The notes beneath the pieces are model-generated. The model was not told the DNA's origin and did no database searches. It saw only the letters and a list, made by a program, of their open reading frames with translations. A stretch of 64,000 nucleotides of DNA from Rhizobiales bacterium 64-17 (lineage in GTDB: Bacteria > Pseudomonadota > Alphaproteobacteria > Rhizobiales > Xanthobacteraceae): positions 62,001 through 126,000 of the forward strand of contig MKWA01000024.1 in assembly GCA_001899285.1 (NCBI GenBank), read 5' to 3'. This document shows positions 20,868-54,736 of the stretch, in pieces (within the stretch, counting starts at the first letter, position 1; every line of letters begins with the position of its first letter). The position numbers were made by a program, and so were the translations under genes.

Positions 20868-22079
20868 TCAGCCGAGCACCGCGACGAGGCGATGCAGCGC
20901 CTCGGCCGTGGTCTCTTTGTCTTGAACCATGGCGACACGAATGAAGCCTTCGCCGGGATTGCGCCCGTCCGGCTGCATGCGCGCGAGATAACGACCGGGC
21001 ACGACGCGTACACCGGCCTTGCTCCAGAGAAGCTTGGTGGCGGCTTCGCTGCCACCCTGCGCCGACACGTTGAGCCAGAGAAAGAATCCGCCGGCGGGCC
21101 GGACATAACCGTAGCGGTCGCCGATAATCTGATCGGCGAGATCGAATTTTGCGCGGTACATATCGCGGTTGTCGTCGACATGCGCCTCGTCGTTATAGGC
21201 GGCGATGCCGACGCGTTGCGCTGGCACCGGCACCTGCGGCGCAGCGACGTTGCGTAGTTCGAGAAAGTCCTTGAGGAAGCGGCGGTCGCCGGCGACGAAA
21301 CCGACGCGCAGACCCGGCAGGTTCGAGCGCTTCGACAGCGAGTGGAAGACTACCGCGTTTGCAAAGTCCGGACCGGAGACTTCCAGCATGCCGGCGGGCG
21401 GCGTGGTGCTGTAGATCTCGCTGTAGCACTCATCATTGAAGACGAGGAAACCGTGACGCTGTGCCAGCGCATGCAGTCGCGCGAGATAGGCGCGATCGGC
21501 GACCGCACCCTGCGGATTGGCGGGCGACGCGAAATAGAATGCGACGGTGCGCTTGAGCAGGTCTTCGCTCAACGCATCGAGATCGGGCAGGAAGTCGTGC
21601 TCGCGATAGGCCGGCAGATAGATGGTCTCGCAACCGGCGGCGGTCGCTCCGGCGGCATAGGCGGCATAGAAGGGATTCGGCAGCAGGATTGCCGGCCGTC
21701 CGGCGCGCGGCCCGACAAATTGTTTCGCTGCGATTGCCGCGAGGAAGAGGCCCTCGCGCGTGCCGTTGAGCACCAGCACCTCGTGTTCCGGATCGACCGG
21801 CCGCGGCAGATCATAACGGCGGTCGAGCCACGCGGCGGCGGCTTGCCGATAGGGCTCGATACCCTTGTTGGCGGGATAGCGGCCAAATTCGGCGATATGC
21901 GCGGCCAGCACCGGACCGACGAACGACGGCACCGCGTGCTGTGGCTCACCGACCGACAGGTTGATCGGCGGCATGCCAGGCGGGGTGTCGCCGAGAAGCT
22001 CGGTCAGGCGCACGAACGGCGAGCGGCGGTCGTCGGTGCTCACGTCCTGATGTTGCGCATGGTGTTGATCGGGCATCAC
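20868..22079 (-). CDS. PLP-dependent class I/II aminotransferase
   Basis: [45 protein letters not shown]. Confidence 0.92.
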
Positions 22080-22133: not shown

Positions 22134-22230
22134 GTTAAGGCGCCGTTAACTATCTGCGGTTTTCCGGGGCATTTATCCACATCTGCGGACATTCACTTTG
22201 TCCTTTAAAATTGGGGCTATTTCGAATTTC
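22134..22230. repeat. Left copy of ~97-bp imperfect direct repeat containing a CtrA-like box (TTAAGGCGCCGTTAAC)
   Basis: Gapless alignment to 54541-54637, 73/97 identical by manual count; first 17 nt identical. Confidence 0.8.
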
Positions 22231-22278
22231 TAGCGCCCGCGCCCATTCGCCGCTATCCGGCACAATTCCGCGAAAATC

Positions 22279-22296
22279 GTTAGCTGTGAGTTAGCT
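22279..22296. repeat. Paired GTTAGCT motif (11-bp spacing)
   Basis: GTTAGCT-gtga-GTTAGCT; same arrangement at 54466-54483. Confidence 0.6.
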
Positions 22297-22523
22297 AGAA
22301 TAGGCCGGGAAACCGAAATCGGGATGCGGTCCACGCGCGGTGATCGAGCGGCATCGAAGCGGCGATTGATGCAGCCGTGACGCAGTCCAGAGCGCCGAAA
22401 ATATTTTTTGGTTTCCGTGTTCGCGCGCATTCGCGGGCGTCCCGCGTTCGGGTCCCTCGCTCTTTGCTTTCCCGCGCGCTGACAATATTTCGCGAGCAGC
22501 AAAATTTTTCCCCCGCCCGCGAA

Positions 22524-23729
22524 ATGCCAAGACCGAGACGTGACGGGACAGCGCCCGCTGCTCCGCGAAAACACAAACTCAATGAGCTGTTGCTGCGTAG
22601 ACTGGAGCCGCGCGAGCGCGCCTATATCGTTTGGGATACGCACCAGCGCGGCTTGTCGGTGCGTGTGCAGCCGACAGGCCATATGGCATGGGTTTTCCTT
22701 TACTCGGCCAATGGCCGACCGCGCTGGTACACGATCGGTGCAATCGATGCGATTGGCTTAGCCGATGCCCGAAAAATGGCAGGTGAAATCGCCTTCAAGG
22801 TCACGCAAGGCCACGATCCCTGCGGTGAGCGAAAACTTGCGCGGGACAAAGGTACATTTGAGGAGCTTCACAATCGCTACGTCGATGAGCATGCCAAGCG
22901 CCGCAACAAATCGTGGCGGCAAGCAGACAAGCTTGTCCGGCGTCATCTTATTCCTCGTTGGGGCAAGCTACAGGTTACAGCAATTGCTCGGCGAGATGTT
23001 AAGGCCGCGATACGGACGATCAAAGCGCCGATCTTGGCCAACCAAACACTCGCGGCTGCTTCAGCCGTCTTCAATTGGGGGATGCGCGAAGAAATAGTGA
23101 CGGGCAATCCGTGTGCGCAGGTTGAACGCAATCCAACCAAAAGTCGCGATAGGGTGTTGTCAGACCGCGAACTGCCTCTGTTCTGGAATGCTTTTCTAGA
23201 TGCGGACGATATCAGCAGCGGGATTCTTCGGATGATCCTGCTCACTGGTCAACGTCCAGGCGAGGTTCGTCATCTCTGCCGTGAGCACATAGTCGACGGA
23301 TGGTGGACAATGCCCGGCGATCCTGACCCAGAGATCGGTTGGCCGGGAACCAAGAACGGAAACACCCATCGCCTGTGGCTACCCGAAGCGGCGCAACAGT
23401 TGCTCGCGCAGATGCCCAATGAAAGTAAGCCTTTTCGTGGCAAGGAAGTGAACCGTGCCATGCAGCAGATCAACGGCAGTCTGAATGAAGTCGCCAAGGC
23501 GCAGGGCAGCCCATCAATCGCACCGGTGCGCCCGCATGATCTACGACGCACGCATGGCACGACCATCACGCGGCTCGGCTTCGGGCGGGATGCGATGAAC
23601 CGCATCCAAAACCACATCGAGGGCGGAATTGCATCCGTCTACGACCGGCACGGATATGCCGACGAGAACAAGCGGATCATGGAGGCGGTGGCGGCGGAAA
23701 TTCTGTCGAAGGTCGACGCCGGACGATGA
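22524..23729 (+). CDS. P4-type tyrosine recombinase/integrase
   Basis: LTGQRPGEVRHL, PHDLRRTHGTTITRLGF, ...YDRHGYADENKRIME; ATG at 22524 preferred over 22377. Confidence 0.92.
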   Translation: MPRPRRDGTAPAAPRKHKLNELLLRRLEPRERAYIVWDTHQRGLSVRVQPTGHMAWVFLYSANGRPRWYTIGAIDAIGLADARKMAGEIAFKVTQGHDPCGERKLARDKGTFEELHNRYVDEHAKRRNKSWRQADKLVRRHLIPRWGKLQVTAIARRDVKAAIRTIKAPILANQTLAAASAVFNWGMREEIVTGNPCAQVERNPTKSRDRVLSDRELPLFWNAFLDADDISSGILRMILLTGQRPGEVRHLCREHIVDGWWTMPGDPDPEIGWPGTKNGNTHRLWLPEAAQQLLAQMPNESKPFRGKEVNRAMQQINGSLNEVAKAQGSPSIAPVRPHDLRRTHGTTITRLGFGRDAMNRIQNHIEGGIASVYDRHGYADENKRIMEAVAAEILSKVDAGR

Positions 23730-23739
23730 GAGCGAACGC

Positions 23740-24078
23740 TTATTCGCCCCTTCGCGCCTTTCCTTCGGCACGGACGGCCTTCTCGATCTGCTCAATCAGT
23801 TCCGCTTCTTTCCTCGGGTCCGTAGCCCAGTCGTGATCGGCGTCACGAACTGCAAACGCCAGCTTTTGGACGAGCCTGCCGTTCTCGCTGCCGCCGAGCA
23901 GGAGGGTAAAGACTTCGTCCCGTTCGAACGAGTTTTCGATCCGGTGTTCCAGCTCTTGTACCAGAGACCGGCCGGATTGCGCTGCGGCGGCCCGCATCTT
24001 TTCCCGAATTTCGGCGGTAGTTCTGAGGTTTAGCGGGTATCGGCGCGGTTCGTTCGCGGGGTGGGATTTTTTCGGCAT
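23740..24078 (-). CDS. Arc-like ribbon-helix-helix protein
   Basis: RRYPLNLRTTAEIREKMRAAAAQSGRSLVQELEHRIENSF. Confidence 0.75.
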   Translation of the reverse strand: MPKKSHPANEPRRYPLNLRTTAEIREKMRAAAAQSGRSLVQELEHRIENSFERDEVFTLLLGGSENGRLVQKLAFAVRDADHDWATDPRKEAELIEQIEKAVRAEGKARRGE

Positions 24079-24182
24079 GACCATCTTAAAATGTTACGTT
24101 TCTCGTTGACTTGGGTCCGGGGACCCTCTAATCGCGGACAACGTAACCCATCAAGTTTCTCCCGTCTATATCGGAGTTCCGC

Positions 24183-24413
24183 ATGCTTCCTCAGTCTCTC
24201 CCGGCCCAATTACCGCTCCAAACCGAACGTCTCATCGACAAGCGCGAGGTCATGCGCCGGGTCGGTCTTGGGTACACGTCGATTTGGAAGCTCATGTGCG
24301 AGGACAAATTCCCGCGCTCTCGTGAACTCGGCCGCAACAAGGTCGCGTGGGTTGAGCGCGAAATCGACGAATTCATCAGGACTCGTCCGGTGCGTCGGCT
24401 GAAGGGCGACTGA
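24183..24413 (+). CDS. AlpA-family/MerR-like excisionase-regulator
   Basis: LIDKREVMRRVGLGYTSIWKLMCEDKFPRSRELGRNKVAWVEREIDEFI. Confidence 0.88.
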   Translation: MLPQSLPAQLPLQTERLIDKREVMRRVGLGYTSIWKLMCEDKFPRSRELGRNKVAWVEREIDEFIRTRPVRRLKGD

Positions 24414-26159
24414 GTGATGGAAGAAACAGCCGCTCCTGCCGCGCCCGCATCCCAATCTTCTATTCCCGATCCGCTGGAGGCTGAGTTTCGCGCCCTATCG
24501 GATGAATGCGTCGCAGCTTGTCTCGCGCAGGTGGCCGCCGACGCGAAGGTATCGGAAAAATTGGTCAAGGTGTACCTGAGTTGGCGCGGCCTTCGGGGTA
24601 CGCCGTTCATGGCGCAGCTTCACCAGGAAGAGGGCTTCTCGTTGCCCGATTACCATGCGGCTGCGCCCGACTTCGTTCCATTTACGAAAATCACGTTTCG
24701 CCTTGGGTTGCAGCGGACGCCTGAAGACAAAAAACGTCTTGCGCAAATGAATAGCGGCACCCGACGGAACAAACAGACCGGCTATGTTGCCAGTCTCGTT
24801 CGCCTTCATGCGGAGTATGAAGAGCACCGGCGCCGCTATGCCAGCGACCCGTACGAACAGCTGCTCGCTTTCCACGAAGAAGCGGGTGGTATTGAAGGAG
24901 CGCGCGAATGGCGCGTCCAGCAGAATGTGCAGCCGACATCGAAGAAAAGAAAAGGCGTTGCGCTGGTCGCGCTGAATAATAGCGTGTCGATCCACGATCG
25001 TGCACGTCAATGGATTGACGACAACGTCGTCGCCAAGATTACCAAGATCACCATCTTAAGCGCTGGACGGAAGACCAAGGTTGGCGCTGTTCAGTTCAGC
25101 GCTGATGGGCGCCAACTCACGGTTCTCGGGCGATATGGGCTGCGAGCCTTCGACATCGCGAACGACAACCTGCGAAATGTAGTTCGACAATCAGCAGCGC
25201 ATTTCGAACATATCGACCCGCCACTTTTGCGGTTGTTCGCAGAAGTTGCCCGAACGCAGCTTTATCCAAGGGCGTTCGCACCTGCCGGATCACGGCTTGA
25301 TCCGAGCAGTCCTTACTCGCTGTGGGATCAGAAGCTCAGCGGCTCAAATTTAGTTCGTCTATTCATGATCGACGGGCATTCTCTGACTTTAAGTCCCAGT
25401 GACGAAGCCGGACTTATCACCGTCGTCACTACACAGGAACCGCTATTTCCGGTCCTGTTGTGGTCGCGGTCGGGCACTCTCGAACAGGTCGAAGAGGCGC
25501 TTGACCAAGGTGCCCTGGCGGGAATGACGGTTAGTCCCGTTGCTCCCATGAAGCTCGGCAGCGGGGTGTTTGGGATGCGTCTGATTGCCAAGGCAGGCGA
25601 TCGCTGCAAATCGCACAAACCGGTTCTGTTGAAATTCGACGACACGGGCGTCGGTAGTCCTCCGCTTCAACCAACCCTAGACCTTCAGAATTTTGTTGCA
25701 CGGTGGTCGTTCTCGGCAGCACCTGAATGGTTTAGAGGCGTCCGGAAAGACTTCTTTGAACCATGGTCAAAAAACCAAGGAGCGCCCAATCGCATCACGC
25801 GCGTCGAAAACCGCCGTTTTGGGATTCGAGTCGACCACAACACCCTCGGCATCACGTTTGAGATCGATTCTGCGGGAAACGGGCCGATCGAAACAATCGC
25901 CCTCGGTAATTCCTCATCGACTAAAGCTCGCTTGCGTCATGGCCCCGGCTTTTGTGATGTGATGTCTCACGATGTTGTCCGCGTGTTCTGCGCGATACCG
26001 GACCTCCCGGTAAAAGGCCATGTGAGCGTCGAAGGAGACGATCACCTCATACTTCTGACGTTCGCGACCGATATAGGAAATTTCCAAATCGGTATTCCCT
26101 CGGTGCTCCAGGACAAGAAAAAGTTGGTCTACACCAAGGCGCATATGACTACGGTGTAG
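24414..26159 (+). CDS. Uncharacterised 581-aa protein, first gene of a pair with a TGT-like enzyme
   Basis: Long intact ORF directly abutting the AlpA stop and 3 nt from the next ORF; no family recognised. Confidence 0.85.
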   Translation: MMEETAAPAAPASQSSIPDPLEAEFRALSDECVAACLAQVAADAKVSEKLVKVYLSWRGLRGTPFMAQLHQEEGFSLPDYHAAAPDFVPFTKITFRLGLQRTPEDKKRLAQMNSGTRRNKQTGYVASLVRLHAEYEEHRRRYASDPYEQLLAFHEEAGGIEGAREWRVQQNVQPTSKKRKGVALVALNNSVSIHDRARQWIDDNVVAKITKITILSAGRKTKVGAVQFSADGRQLTVLGRYGLRAFDIANDNLRNVVRQSAAHFEHIDPPLLRLFAEVARTQLYPRAFAPAGSRLDPSSPYSLWDQKLSGSNLVRLFMIDGHSLTLSPSDEAGLITVVTTQEPLFPVLLWSRSGTLEQVEEALDQGALAGMTVSPVAPMKLGSGVFGMRLIAKAGDRCKSHKPVLLKFDDTGVGSPPLQPTLDLQNFVARWSFSAAPEWFRGVRKDFFEPWSKNQGAPNRITRVENRRFGIRVDHNTLGITFEIDSAGNGPIETIALGNSSSTKARLRHGPGFCDVMSHDVVRVFCAIPDLPVKGHVSVEGDDHLILLTFATDIGNFQIGIPSVLQDKKKLVYTKAHMTTV

Positions 26160-26162
26160 TCG

Positions 26163-27557
26163 ATGTCATCGATCGACCTGACGGCGCGGCTGCGGAACTT
26201 CGCGCCTTATCTGCCGAGCATTCAGCCCTCATCCGCCGAACGGTTCGTGAAGGATAGTTCGAAGTGGAGAGCATCCCCGTTGCCGGCCGGCTTGAGGCCG
26301 GATGACTTCGATTACCTTCAGGCCAACAATCGCTATTGGTCGTACCTATGTGGGTTGGCCTCGGCAGAGGCATTTCGGGGCAGCAAGGATAATTCGATCG
26401 CGTATCGCGACTCGAACACGGACGTGTTGGGCGATTCCGGGGGCTTTTCATACGGGTCTGGCAGCGGCGAACCTGGCCAATGGCGGGGGTTAACGTGTGA
26501 GGCAGAAGTCGTGGCTGCCTGGCGCAACAGCGGCATTCTTGAGAAAACGGTCGACTGGATCGAGCGTTATGCTTCGGCTGGTTTGACCCTCGACCTGCCA
26601 CTTTGGGCAGCACGACCGGTGAATTCGGAGTCACCATTCCACCTATGCTCCGCAATGACCCTGCTAGCGTTGAGCATGGAACACGTCCAATACCTGCTCG
26701 ATCGTAAGTCTGCGGGAAGACTCAAACGGAAATACCTCAACGTTCTGCAAGGCGATAAGGAGGCCGACGAAGAGGTTTGGTACCAGCAGGCGCGGCAGTA
26801 TCGGCTAGACGGGTGGAGCTTCGCGGGTGGCGTCGGCACCGATGGCGGACCTTATAGAATTATTCGGCGCCTGCTGACCCTCCGGGACGATGGTCTTCTC
26901 GGTTCGGGGTTGAACTGGGTGCATCTCCTCAAACAGACGCAGCTCCGCTGGGCCCCCGTCCTCACGGCCATGCAGCGGGGCATCCAGCGCTCCATCGGTG
27001 CCGAGGACTTCAAGATTACCTATGACAGCAGCACCCCCTATCAGGAGGCCGGCAAGCGTGAGCGATTTGTCGAAGCCCCCGCGCTCGGTCCGTCCCTCGT
27101 AGGCTGGCACTTCAAATATCATAAGTTCCCGACGACTTTTGGTGTGGCGACCGCTGCGGTGCCGCTATCCTTGGCCACTGCAACCTGCACGGCTCAGAAA
27201 TGCACTATGTGCCAAAGTCAGGGCTCACATCTTGATGCTCCGCTGCTCAGCCCGATCGCGCAACTTTTGACCATTCAGGATTTGCTGGAGCGGAAGGGAA
27301 ACCTCATTACCCGCCGGGGCAGTGTTCTGGCCGATGAGGTGCTGATCAACCACAACGTTTTTACGGTGGTGGAGGGCATCATCCGCGCCAACGAGGCGGT
27401 GTTTTCGGCCACACCGAATGCGCCGCAGGAATTGATCGATGCGGCTGGTATGGTCGCGGACATTTGTAATCGACAGTCATGGCACACCACGTTGACCTAC
27501 CACCGTACTTTTCTTGAAAAGGCGGTTGCCTATCGTCCGTCCAAAAATGTTCTGTGA
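26163..27557 (+). CDS. Divergent tRNA-guanine transglycosylase (TGT)/DpdA-superfamily protein
   Basis: TGT-order motifs: GDSGGF; GLTLDLP; YLNVLQG...LDGWSFAGGV; WVHLL; ITYDSSTP (nucleophile-Asp position); CTMC; LINHN. Confidence 0.75.
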   Translation: MSSIDLTARLRNFAPYLPSIQPSSAERFVKDSSKWRASPLPAGLRPDDFDYLQANNRYWSYLCGLASAEAFRGSKDNSIAYRDSNTDVLGDSGGFSYGSGSGEPGQWRGLTCEAEVVAAWRNSGILEKTVDWIERYASAGLTLDLPLWAARPVNSESPFHLCSAMTLLALSMEHVQYLLDRKSAGRLKRKYLNVLQGDKEADEEVWYQQARQYRLDGWSFAGGVGTDGGPYRIIRRLLTLRDDGLLGSGLNWVHLLKQTQLRWAPVLTAMQRGIQRSIGAEDFKITYDSSTPYQEAGKRERFVEAPALGPSLVGWHFKYHKFPTTFGVATAAVPLSLATATCTAQKCTMCQSQGSHLDAPLLSPIAQLLTIQDLLERKGNLITRRGSVLADEVLINHNVFTVVEGIIRANEAVFSATPNAPQELIDAAGMVADICNRQSWHTTLTYHRTFLEKAVAYRPSKNVL

Positions 27558-27788: not shown

Positions 27789-28472
27789 CTAGTCAGCTAG
27801 ACCAACGATCAAACCAGCGTCGTTATCGTCGGCGCGCGAGCTGTTGACCTTCTTGTCGACCATCCAGCGCTGGAGAAGGTTGTCATTCCCAGGAACCAGA
27901 ACCTCCTTGCCAAGCTCGCCTGACAACCATCCGTCGAACTGTTCTGGCTGAAGAATAACCGGCATCCGGTCATGGACTTCGGCGACGAACTTGTTCGGTT
28001 CGGTGATGATCATGGAGCAGGAGCGGATCAGCTCTCCCGTTGTACGATCTTTCCACCCGTCCCAAATCCCCGCGATGGAAACGATCGGACTGTTCTTTTG
28101 GGTGAAATACCAAGGCTGCGGCTTCTTATCGCCTTCGATGTGCTGCCATTCGTAATAGCCACTCGCGGGAATGATGCAGCGGTTCTTTTTGAACGCAGTC
28201 CGAAACATCGGCTTCTGTTCCACTGTTTCCGCTCTGGCGTTGAACGTCGCCATTTTCATTTCCTTGAGCGGCTTTGACCACCATCCTGGAATGAGACCCC
28301 AGCGCATCTGCTCGATCTGGCGCTTACCCTCCAGTTCCGTGACCACATCAATCATCGTGGTCGGACAAATATTGTATCGAGGCTGAAGGTTGCGGATCAT
28401 GTAGGGCTCGGTCAGGCGGTATAGCCTGACGAGTTCTTCCCACGTGTACATGCTCGTAAAGCGCCCGCACAT
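27789..28472 (-). CDS. SOS response-associated peptidase (SRAP/YedK/HMCES family)
   Basis: N-terminal MCGRF with catalytic Cys2, QPRYNICPT, WGLIPGW, FNARAETV, RCIIPASGYYEW. Confidence 0.95.
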   Translation of the reverse strand: MCGRFTSMYTWEELVRLYRLTEPYMIRNLQPRYNICPTTMIDVVTELEGKRQIEQMRWGLIPGWWSKPLKEMKMATFNARAETVEQKPMFRTAFKKNRCIIPASGYYEWQHIEGDKKPQPWYFTQKNSPIVSIAGIWDGWKDRTTGELIRSCSMIITEPNKFVAEVHDRMPVILQPEQFDGWLSGELGKEVLVPGNDNLLQRWMVDKKVNSSRADDNDAGLIVGLAD

Positions 28473-28941
28473 CAGAAGCGGACCAGCGCCAGTGTGAGGA
28501 CGATAATCAGGACCGCGATGATGCACATCGGGATCGAGAGCCCGAAGTCCGGTTCAGGCCCGCCGTAATCCGGGGATTTCTCGTATCCGGTCATGTCTTT
28601 TCCCAGACGTGCCAGCGACCACCACGGTTTCGTTTCTTTGGATCGAATGGTTCTCCATCGAACCGCTGGCGGAAAGCCTCAGCCTGCTCGGGCTTGGCGA
28701 AACAATAAACGTTGTACCACACCGCATCCCGCACAACCGCGTGCCGGCGGGGGCAGGCTTCCAGCTCCTGTACCCCCGTTGAACCTCCAAACCATTGAAC
28801 CGGCCGGTGACATTCTCGCGGACCGCGATCTGGTGCGGCGAGCCCTATCCGTCGGGCGTAAGTTCCCCTTTCCGTTTCACGCATTCTCCTTGACTGAATG
28901 TTCTGCTTTTGTTCTAACTTGGCTTTCGCAAGAGTCCAGCC

Positions 28942-30067: not shown

Positions 30068-30186
30068 CGTTCAACCTCGAGGTCGGAATGCCCACGCCTC
30101 ATGGAAAGTTCCATCCAACTCTTAGCAACTGATTCGTCCAGGGCGCGTTGAGTCGCGAATCATGTGTGTTGCGTAAAGGAGTACCC

Positions 30187-30669
30187 ATGGCCCCGCGCGC
30201 CTATTGGAAGGGGAACCTGCGGTTATCGCTCGTTTCGTGCCCTATCGAACTGTTCCCGGCCACCGGCGCCGCCGAAAAGATCAGCTTCAACCAGATCAAT
30301 TCCGAGACCGGGAACCGGATCAGCTACCGGAAGGTCGACGCCGGCACGGGCGAGCCAGTCGAAGCCGACAAAATCATCAAGGGCTACAAGGTGGACAAGG
30401 ACACGTATGTCACCCTTGAACCTGAAGAGCTTGAGGCTGTCGCGCTCGACACCACACACGCGATCAGCATCGAGCAGTTCGTTCCCGAAGCAGAGATCGA
30501 CGAGCTCTATTACGGCGATCCCTATTACGTGATGCCGGAAGGCGAGTACGGCGAGGAGGCCTTCGCGGTGTTGCGCGAGGCGATCAGCGAAAAAGACATG
30601 GTGGCGATCGGGCGGGTCGTATTCCGCTCCCGCGAACTGCTGGGACGGCTCGGGCTGGACCAAAGATAA
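30187..30669 (+). pseudogene. ku: 5' fragment of Ku (NHEJ DNA end-binding protein)
   Basis: MAPRAYWKGNLRLSLVSCPIELFPAT...YKVDKDTYVTLEPEELEAV...AIGRVVFRSRE then loss of homology and a stop; C-terminal part missing. Confidence 0.85.
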
Positions 30670-32762: not shown

Positions 32763-33344
32763 CTAGAGAACTGTATTATTCCAATCTATCTCTGACCCGC
32801 GGTCGAGATATTTGGTAGCGTAGCTGAAGTAATCGCCGGTCAGCGGGCCAGCCCAGTAGAGGCGATCGTCGAAATCGCACGTAGCAAATTCGCCAACCTG
32901 TTCGTGCCAAAGCGATGATAGCATTGTGGATGTGCGAAAGGCGCCAAGCTCAGGCGGAGATTTCAGGAGCAAATGCGCGTGCCACCCGACTGTCTGCTGA
33001 TGTTCAAGCACCACCAGCCGAGACACCCTGATACCATGTCGCCGATATTGGGCCCGGTGCACTTTCCGATCAAATCGGTTCAAGCAATGGCGCAGCTCTT
33101 TACTCAATGACATCTCGTCATTGCTGCAAAATCTTCCAAAAGCGGCTTGGACGCGACGCGGCAAATGCATTGTAGCCGGCAGATCACCACCACCTTGTCT
33201 CAGCCAATCGCGTACTGCGTCGCGTATGAAGATACGATGTTCAGGCCACGCCATTTGTTCTCGCCCATTCTGCTCTCTCTGCGCGACTGTATGAATAGCA
33301 GGTACTTGCTGCGCCAAACGTGTTGCGCATGAAGCGTCGGCCAC
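32763..33344 (-). CDS. HUH-endonuclease/Rep-like protein
   Basis: GWHAHLLL (HUH) followed by YFSYATKYLDR (YxxKY-like); start uncertain (33344 or internal). Confidence 0.55.
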   Translation of the reverse strand: MADASCATRLAQQVPAIHTVAQREQNGREQMAWPEHRIFIRDAVRDWLRQGGGDLPATMHLPRRVQAAFGRFCSNDEMSLSKELRHCLNRFDRKVHRAQYRRHGIRVSRLVVLEHQQTVGWHAHLLLKSPPELGAFRTSTMLSSLWHEQVGEFATCDFDDRLYWAGPLTGDYFSYATKYLDRGSEIDWNNTVL

Positions 33345-33858: not shown

Positions 33859-34305
33859 ATGGAGCTTCAGATGAGCGCACTCAAATCACTGGTTTTTGCC
33901 CCACTACCCAAGCTGTCCGGTGCAGATCCCGTGCAGCATCGCCGCAACAAACTGATCGAACGGCTGCGCCAGCAGATTTCGTTGGCAAACGACCCCGCGT
34001 TCGCGCTTACCCGGCAGAAATGGGTGTCGGACGGGAATGGCGGAAAGAACTTGCTGGAACAGCGCAAGCGCGTGCGCCCGTGGTGGAGGATGGATGGAAG
34101 CGGAAATGTCGTGCTGACCGTACGCTACGGTGCTCGTCCGATCGAGTTCGACAAAGGTAAGGCTGCTATCGCAGTTGGGAAGAAGGACAAGCTCGTTTCG
34201 ACGATCGAAACTGTGATCTCAGCCGTGGAAGCTGGCGAGCTAGACGCCGCGATTGGGCATATGAGCAAGACTGCGGTGCAGCTTAAGAGTAAGAAGGCTG
34301 CTTGA
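33859..34305 (+). CDS. Hypothetical protein
   Basis: Intact ORF MSALKSLVFAPLPKLSGADPVQHRRNKLIERL..., basic, preceded by a GGAGCTTCAG-type leader. Confidence 0.7.
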   Translation: MELQMSALKSLVFAPLPKLSGADPVQHRRNKLIERLRQQISLANDPAFALTRQKWVSDGNGGKNLLEQRKRVRPWWRMDGSGNVVLTVRYGARPIEFDKGKAAIAVGKKDKLVSTIETVISAVEAGELDAAIGHMSKTAVQLKSKKAA

Positions 34306-54540: not shown

Positions 54541-54637
54541 GTTAAGGCGCCGTTAACCATCGACGGTTTTCCGGGCCTTTTATCGACGGTCGTGAACCTT
54601 CACTTGGTCCTTTGAATCAGCGCTGTTTTGGAATTTC
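54541..54637. repeat. Right copy of ~97-bp imperfect direct repeat with CtrA-like box
   Basis: Gapless match to 22134-22230 (73/97 by manual count). Confidence 0.8.
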
Positions 54638-54736
54638 GGCGTTTGGGTTCGTTCGCCACAAGCCGGCGCGCAATGCGGGACGATCGTTCGCTGGGCAGAG
54701 CTTGAAGACGCCGGCAAATCCAAGCCTAAGCGACCG

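Follow-up and report, generated by a model that had tools for sequence, protein, structure and literature searches.

We identified, in a 64,000-nucleotide stretch of contig MKWA01000024.1 of Rhizobiales bacterium 64-17 (hereafter the window), a pair of adjacent genes encoding a predicted TGT-fold enzyme, P0002, and a partner protein, P0001. It is an evenly balanced judgement that the two genes form a module for DNA base exchange, related to one found in large phages and carried by an integrase/AlpA island. A wider proposal, for which the balance tilts slightly the other way, is that in large phages a TGT-family enzyme performs DNA base exchange while docked on the sliding clamp, and thus in step with replication, and that the island offshoot swapped the docking peptide for a partner with a clamp-like domain. 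The genes of the unit and of the island around it are as follows.

22377 to 23729, forward strand: P4-type tyrosine integrase (Pfam Arm-DNA-bind_3 3e-12, Phage_int_M 1.5e-7).
23740 to 24084, reverse strand: Arc-like ribbon-helix-helix regulator (Pfam Arc 8e-5; homolog in locus L011, 1.2e-38).
24183 to 24413, forward strand: AlpA-type regulator/excisionase, with which the unit opens (Pfam Phage_AlpA 2e-12).
24414 to 26159, forward strand: partner protein P0001, 581 aa; counting the window, ten intact bacterial loci have a partner gene immediately before the TGT-like gene.
26163 to 27557, forward strand: predicted TGT-fold enzyme P0002, 464 aa (AlphaFold2 pTM 0.87; the 47 best PDB fold matches are TGTs without exception).
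33859 to 34305, forward strand: DUF6641 gene, recurrent near other TGT copies (Pfam DUF6641 4.5e-12).

The first gene is, judged by its sequence, certainly an AlpA gene, and AlpA homologs also precede the TGT/partner pair in loci L010 and L011. Its stop codon (TGA, 24411 to 24413) is followed directly by the GTG at 24414 that opens the P0001 frame, for which an alternative ATG lies at 24417; the P0001 frame closes at 26159, and the ATG of P0002 follows 3 nt on. These coordinates match the three-frame layout that an earlier note, made from the sequence alone, had described. Since relatives of each occur elsewhere, sequence comparison indicates that both long frames are real genes. No useful family match was obtained for P0001 or P0002 in Pfam, NCBIfam, PHROG or PADLOC.

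The order integrase, AlpA, partner, TGT and then DUF6641 is common to the window and two other genomes of the genus, G010 and G030, where it occupies the same place beside an aminotransferase gene that was present in all 44 genus genomes searched. Relatives of the integrase lie at this chromosomal site in both genomes, and the integrase matched those of L011 and L010 by phmmer at 1e-168 and 3e-166, respectively. Homology to island-free genomes ends near 22025 to 22036, and the closest genome (G001) tracks the window up to 22296, with unrelated genes from there. DUF6641 homologs were found in L010, L011, L103, L106, L153 and L155, and the gene probably belongs to the distal part of the element that carries the pair. 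The mobile setting suspected in the earlier note was recovered as an integrase/AlpA island. Because some other bacterial loci have a different, 190-aa recombinase, more than one type of element must carry the pair.

Several further features were observed around the unit. A sequence of about 180 bases is directly repeated at 72% identity: one copy, at 22134 to 22312, separates the aminotransferase gene from the integrase gene, and the other is at 54541 to 54718. An SRAP (HMCES/YedK-like) gene (27789 to 28526; Pfam SRAP 4.7e-63) closely follows the TGT gene, on the opposite strand. A Ku-domain frame of just 173 aa (30148 to 30669; Pfam Ku 5.8e-41) is apparently a truncated or frameshifted Ku gene. 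A weak match to an ORF2/G2P-type replication protein at 32763 to 33344 (1e-4, under the Pfam cut-off) may be part of the element.

Structure prediction placed P0002 in the TGT superfamily, as the earlier note had proposed, with the catalytic Asp pair kept, D91 as the general acid/base and D288 as the nucleophile. The model (alignment of 55 sequences; pLDDT 82) gave 47 PDB matches below 1e-3, every one a TGT at probability 1.00, with modest TM-scores of 0.36 to 0.45 by query length; its matches in a viral fold library included DpdA2 of phage nt-1 (R9TGF0, 2.5e-9) and a TGT of phage Motura. Searches with P0002 and its alignments of Pfam, NCBIfam, PHROGs, PADLOC and PDB sequences returned nothing usable. 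The P0002-family profile was colinear with E. coli TGT at the catalytic residues (profile comparison: probability 80%, E 1.4e-5), and DSGG 91 to 94, D144, Q196, G197, D288 and H397 were invariant in all aligned phage and bacterial members, P0002 included. The principal positions, all on the forward strand, are given below.

26433 to 26435, forward strand: Asp91 of DSGGF, which aligns to the catalytic residue Asp89 of E. coli TGT.
26592 to 26594, forward strand: Asp144, which aligns to the base-recognition residue Asp143 of E. coli TGT.
27024 to 27026, forward strand: Asp288 of YDSSTP, which aligns to the TGT nucleophile, the Asp of FDCVMPTR.
27186 to 27212, forward strand: Cys342-x4-Cys347-x2-Cys350 insert, unique to P0002, possible zinc ligands with His397.
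27351 to 27353, forward strand: invariant His397, counterpart of the TGT zinc-binding His.

Every TGT landmark motif that had been reported for this product was found, in the order listed. Of the last two, one is weaker than the note had it: His397 of LINHN is invariant, whereas the CTMC cysteines lie inside an insert (C342, C347, C350) that none of the aligned relatives has (54 from phages, 8 from bacteria) and in which model confidence is below 50. A putative zinc site of P0002 would pair the invariant histidine with a cysteine cluster of altered spacing and low model confidence that only P0002 has. Because of the fold matches and the invariant, colinear catalytic residues, P0002 is, on the model, a TGT-fold enzyme of an unnamed family and is probably active.

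Bacterial TGT and archaeal TgtA have the same fold and colinear catalytic residues as P0002, but identity is about 12%, and the zinc cysteines are absent in the P0002 relatives and doubtful in P0002. Bacterial P0002 relatives gave weak matches to archaeal TgtA, the best at 3.4e-5. DpdA is established to put preQ0 into DNA (PMC6884629). The preQ0-DNA deoxyribosyltransferases DpdA/DpdA2 of phages 9g and nt-1 have the TGT fold and the catalytic Asp pair in common with P0002, and some phage relatives of P0002 lie near FolE-like genes. By sequence, the P0002 family and nt-1 DpdA2, the DpdA compared, gave hhalign probabilities of 3 to 9%, which is not significant, and naming P0002 a DpdA would exceed this test. 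Unlike DpdA/DpdA2, the P0002 family has a clamp gene as its neighbour in phages and a distinct partner gene in bacteria, and no dpd cluster lies near the pair in the window.

The P0002 family is mainly a phage family that also occurs in some bacterial islands. A profile scan of IMG/VR detected at least 571 stretches encoding P0002 relatives, of which the best 80 were retained. Relatives were also found in jumbo phages such as PA5oct and Phosso, on an Azospirillum plasmid, at 31% identity in two genomes of the genus, in five order-sample genomes (one degraded), in one class-sample genome and in three more in the phylum sample. TGT-like matches within the genus were confined to the window, G010, G030 and a fragment in G037. 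Phage Paride and other PA5oct-like phages encode TGT relatives as well. In the tree, most bacterial members stood apart from the phage members, and P0002 sat on a very long branch, its placement being uncertain. A Lysobacterales MAG contig (L001:1-1127, JAFKMZ010000027.1) starts with 375 residues identical to P0002 and, at the contig edge, passes in frame into HMG-CoA-reductase-like sequence near residue 411; this 100% copy was set aside as a sign of spread, being probably a misassembly or contamination.

In phages, the gene upstream of the TGT gene was a 243-aa member of phrog_12062, on the same strand and often touching it, in 76 of the 77 IMG/VR loci (from the best 80 of at least 571) and in PA5oct. 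The sole exception among the 77 was L033, in which the TGT gene lies 271 bases from the contig start, and the TGT relative of Phosso is without an upstream phrog_12062 gene. The model of a phrog_12062 member had a pLDDT of 94, and the PDB matches listed for it were all PCNA or PCNA complexes; phrog_12062, annotated as of unknown function, is on this prediction a PCNA-fold sliding clamp. The phage clamp profile had no sequence match to nt-1 gp45, and the clamp, partner and N-region profiles found nothing among PDB sequences. An initial candidate match between this short phage gene and the N-terminal region of the bacterial partner was dropped once the phage protein had been modelled as a clamp. 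PA5oct gp170 (L008:3552-4298), annotated as a structural protein, is a member of phrog_12062 and, because of this membership, probably the sliding clamp of that phage.

A protein of about 885 aa, encoded a little further upstream of the phage clamp and TGT genes, is taken for a family B DNA polymerase on the strength of its sequence and position and of the polymerase annotations there in PA5oct. An FxxLF motif occurred within the last 80 residues in 64 of 72 distinct phage TGTs, against a mean of 1.3 and a maximum of 5 for shuffled tails, a test of enrichment and not of a prior prediction because the motif was chosen after the tails had been viewed. Independent of that choice is the agreement with the polymerase ends, since FxxLF stood within the last 12 residues in 52 of the 55 polymerase-like proteins from the same contigs. 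Among other frames, 16 of 512 had it within the last 80 residues. A terminal peptide of this kind is a known clamp-docking device of T4-type polymerases. Since the phage TGTs carry the polymerases' peptide beside a clamp gene, they probably dock on the neighbouring clamp. No FxxLF docking peptide was found in the bacterial TGTs, P0002 included. Downstream genes in some phage loci encode GTP cyclohydrolase I, epimerase, glycosyltransferase-like and phosphoribosyltransferase proteins; a FolE-like GTP cyclohydrolase was present in 15 of the 77 phage flanks (IMG/VR, best 80 of at least 571), and PA5oct has an annotated QueE-like gene.

In bacteria, the recurrence of the two-gene unit in other genomes, which the earlier note had supposed, was evident from ten intact loci (window, G010, G030, G381, G431, G283, G366, G742, G1140 and G1120) in which the partner gene lies just upstream of the TGT gene on the same strand. 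The partner is upstream of TGT in the degraded G303 locus too; there (L107, G303:C30) the TGT and partner copy is broken by stops, with an IS-type transposase alongside. The bacterial loci without a recognisable partner were those of Azospirillum and the truncated G932 copy. A 579-aa convergent neighbour in Azospirillum was considered as a partner homolog and rejected, having no detectable homology by profile comparison. The bacterial partners are homologous to P0001 by profile comparison, and these relatives were reached only via the gene upstream of TGT relatives; a direct search with P0001 of plasmids, phages, viral contigs and 100 related genomes found no relative, and scanning viral contigs with a partner profile was likewise negative. 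Two regions of P0001 are shared with different partners.

24732 to 25118, forward strand: P0001 residues 107 to 235, common to the short partners of G030, G010 and G742 (hhalign score 35.0 against a shuffled null of 14.6 +/- 2.0).
25896 to 26120, forward strand: P0001 residues 495 to 569, C-terminal, common to the long partners (score 48.9 against a null of 16.2 +/- 2.7).

The C-terminus of the long-partner family resembles, in profile comparison, the end of the phage clamp. Aligned C-terminus to C-terminus, the two scored 38.2 against 14.6 +/- 1.9 (maximum 19.6) for 150 column-shuffled versions, which is 12 SD above the null, over about 45 columns only; controls scored 15.1 when reversed and 21.1 for the TGT family. 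The hhalign probability was 38% with P0001 and 57% without it. Because P0001 alone had no detectable similarity to the phage clamp, the link between them is transitive as well as short, and the part of P0001 N-terminal to the clamp-like region is long and unrelated to the clamp. Whereas phage phrog_12062 has the predicted PCNA fold of PCNA/gp45-type clamps, and the long partners of bacteria are, as a family, similar to its C-terminus, for P0001 sequence comparison supports a likeness to such clamps only over this short C-terminal part. The short partners (G030, G010 and G742) showed no clamp-like end, so that such an end is not needed everywhere. The description of the 581-aa protein as uncharacterised holds in that it has no curated family match, but P0001 is not an orphan: its family is conserved, and the resemblance of that family's C-terminus to a clamp had been overlooked, as had the largely phage occurrence of the enzyme family beside a PCNA-fold clamp.

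As to supply, the search near the pair found no preQ0-synthesis genes or dpd cluster, in agreement with the earlier note, which had reasoned that the pair would rely on the host for preQ0 or queuine or else act differently. QueC was found in the host genome, as was one canonical TGT, located elsewhere. Since both are present, the host probably has preQ0 available and its housekeeping TGT role already filled.

That canonical TGT counts against an alternative in which P0002 acts on RNA, tRNA or other, and not on DNA, the partner being an adaptor and its clamp likeness chance. The solved structures matched by P0002 are all tRNA enzymes and the partner-clamp similarity is short, as this alternative would have it; yet its phage relatives lie in a polymerase-clamp setting and carry the polymerase peptide, features that one would not expect of a tRNA enzyme, and we regard action on RNA as unlikely. 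A loss of base exchange in the bacterial copies, which would then have a binding or regulatory role on the island as a pair, would suit the very long branch of P0002 and the degraded copies in other genomes (G303 and G037), but no aligned member, P0002 included, departs from D91, D144, Q196, D288 and H397, and such a loss is more doubtful still.

The pair might also serve in anti-phage defence, as the earlier note had suggested, with the enzyme marking or altering DNA or RNA and the partner sensing invading forks via its clamp-like end. Its location on an island is compatible with this role, and canonical bacterial dpd clusters are restriction-modification systems (PMC6884629). On the other hand, PADLOC had no match for the pair (for P0001 only AbiEi at E 0.057, for P0002 nothing), no nuclease or effector was recognised among the genes of the unit, and phages themselves widely carry the family. 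The suggestion consequently gained no backing, and a defence role seems improbable; self-protection of the island is likelier.

The base-exchange module that we favour would work as follows. A P0002-type enzyme would swap guanine in DNA for a 7-deazaguanine, either host-made preQ0 or a derivative. In phages, the exchange would be carried out by an enzyme docked on the replication clamp, while in bacteria the partner would recruit the enzyme to DNA or hold it there. The likeliest benefit would be to shield the element's own DNA from restriction. Among the titles and abstracts of non-subscription papers surveyed, none clearly joined DpdA or preQ0 DNA modification to sliding clamps. If true, the clamp-docking proposal would provide a directly testable answer to how DpdA-type enzymes find their target guanines in DNA and how the modification is timed relative to replication, and it offers a function for phrog_12062 and for an unnamed protein family of large phages such as PA5oct.
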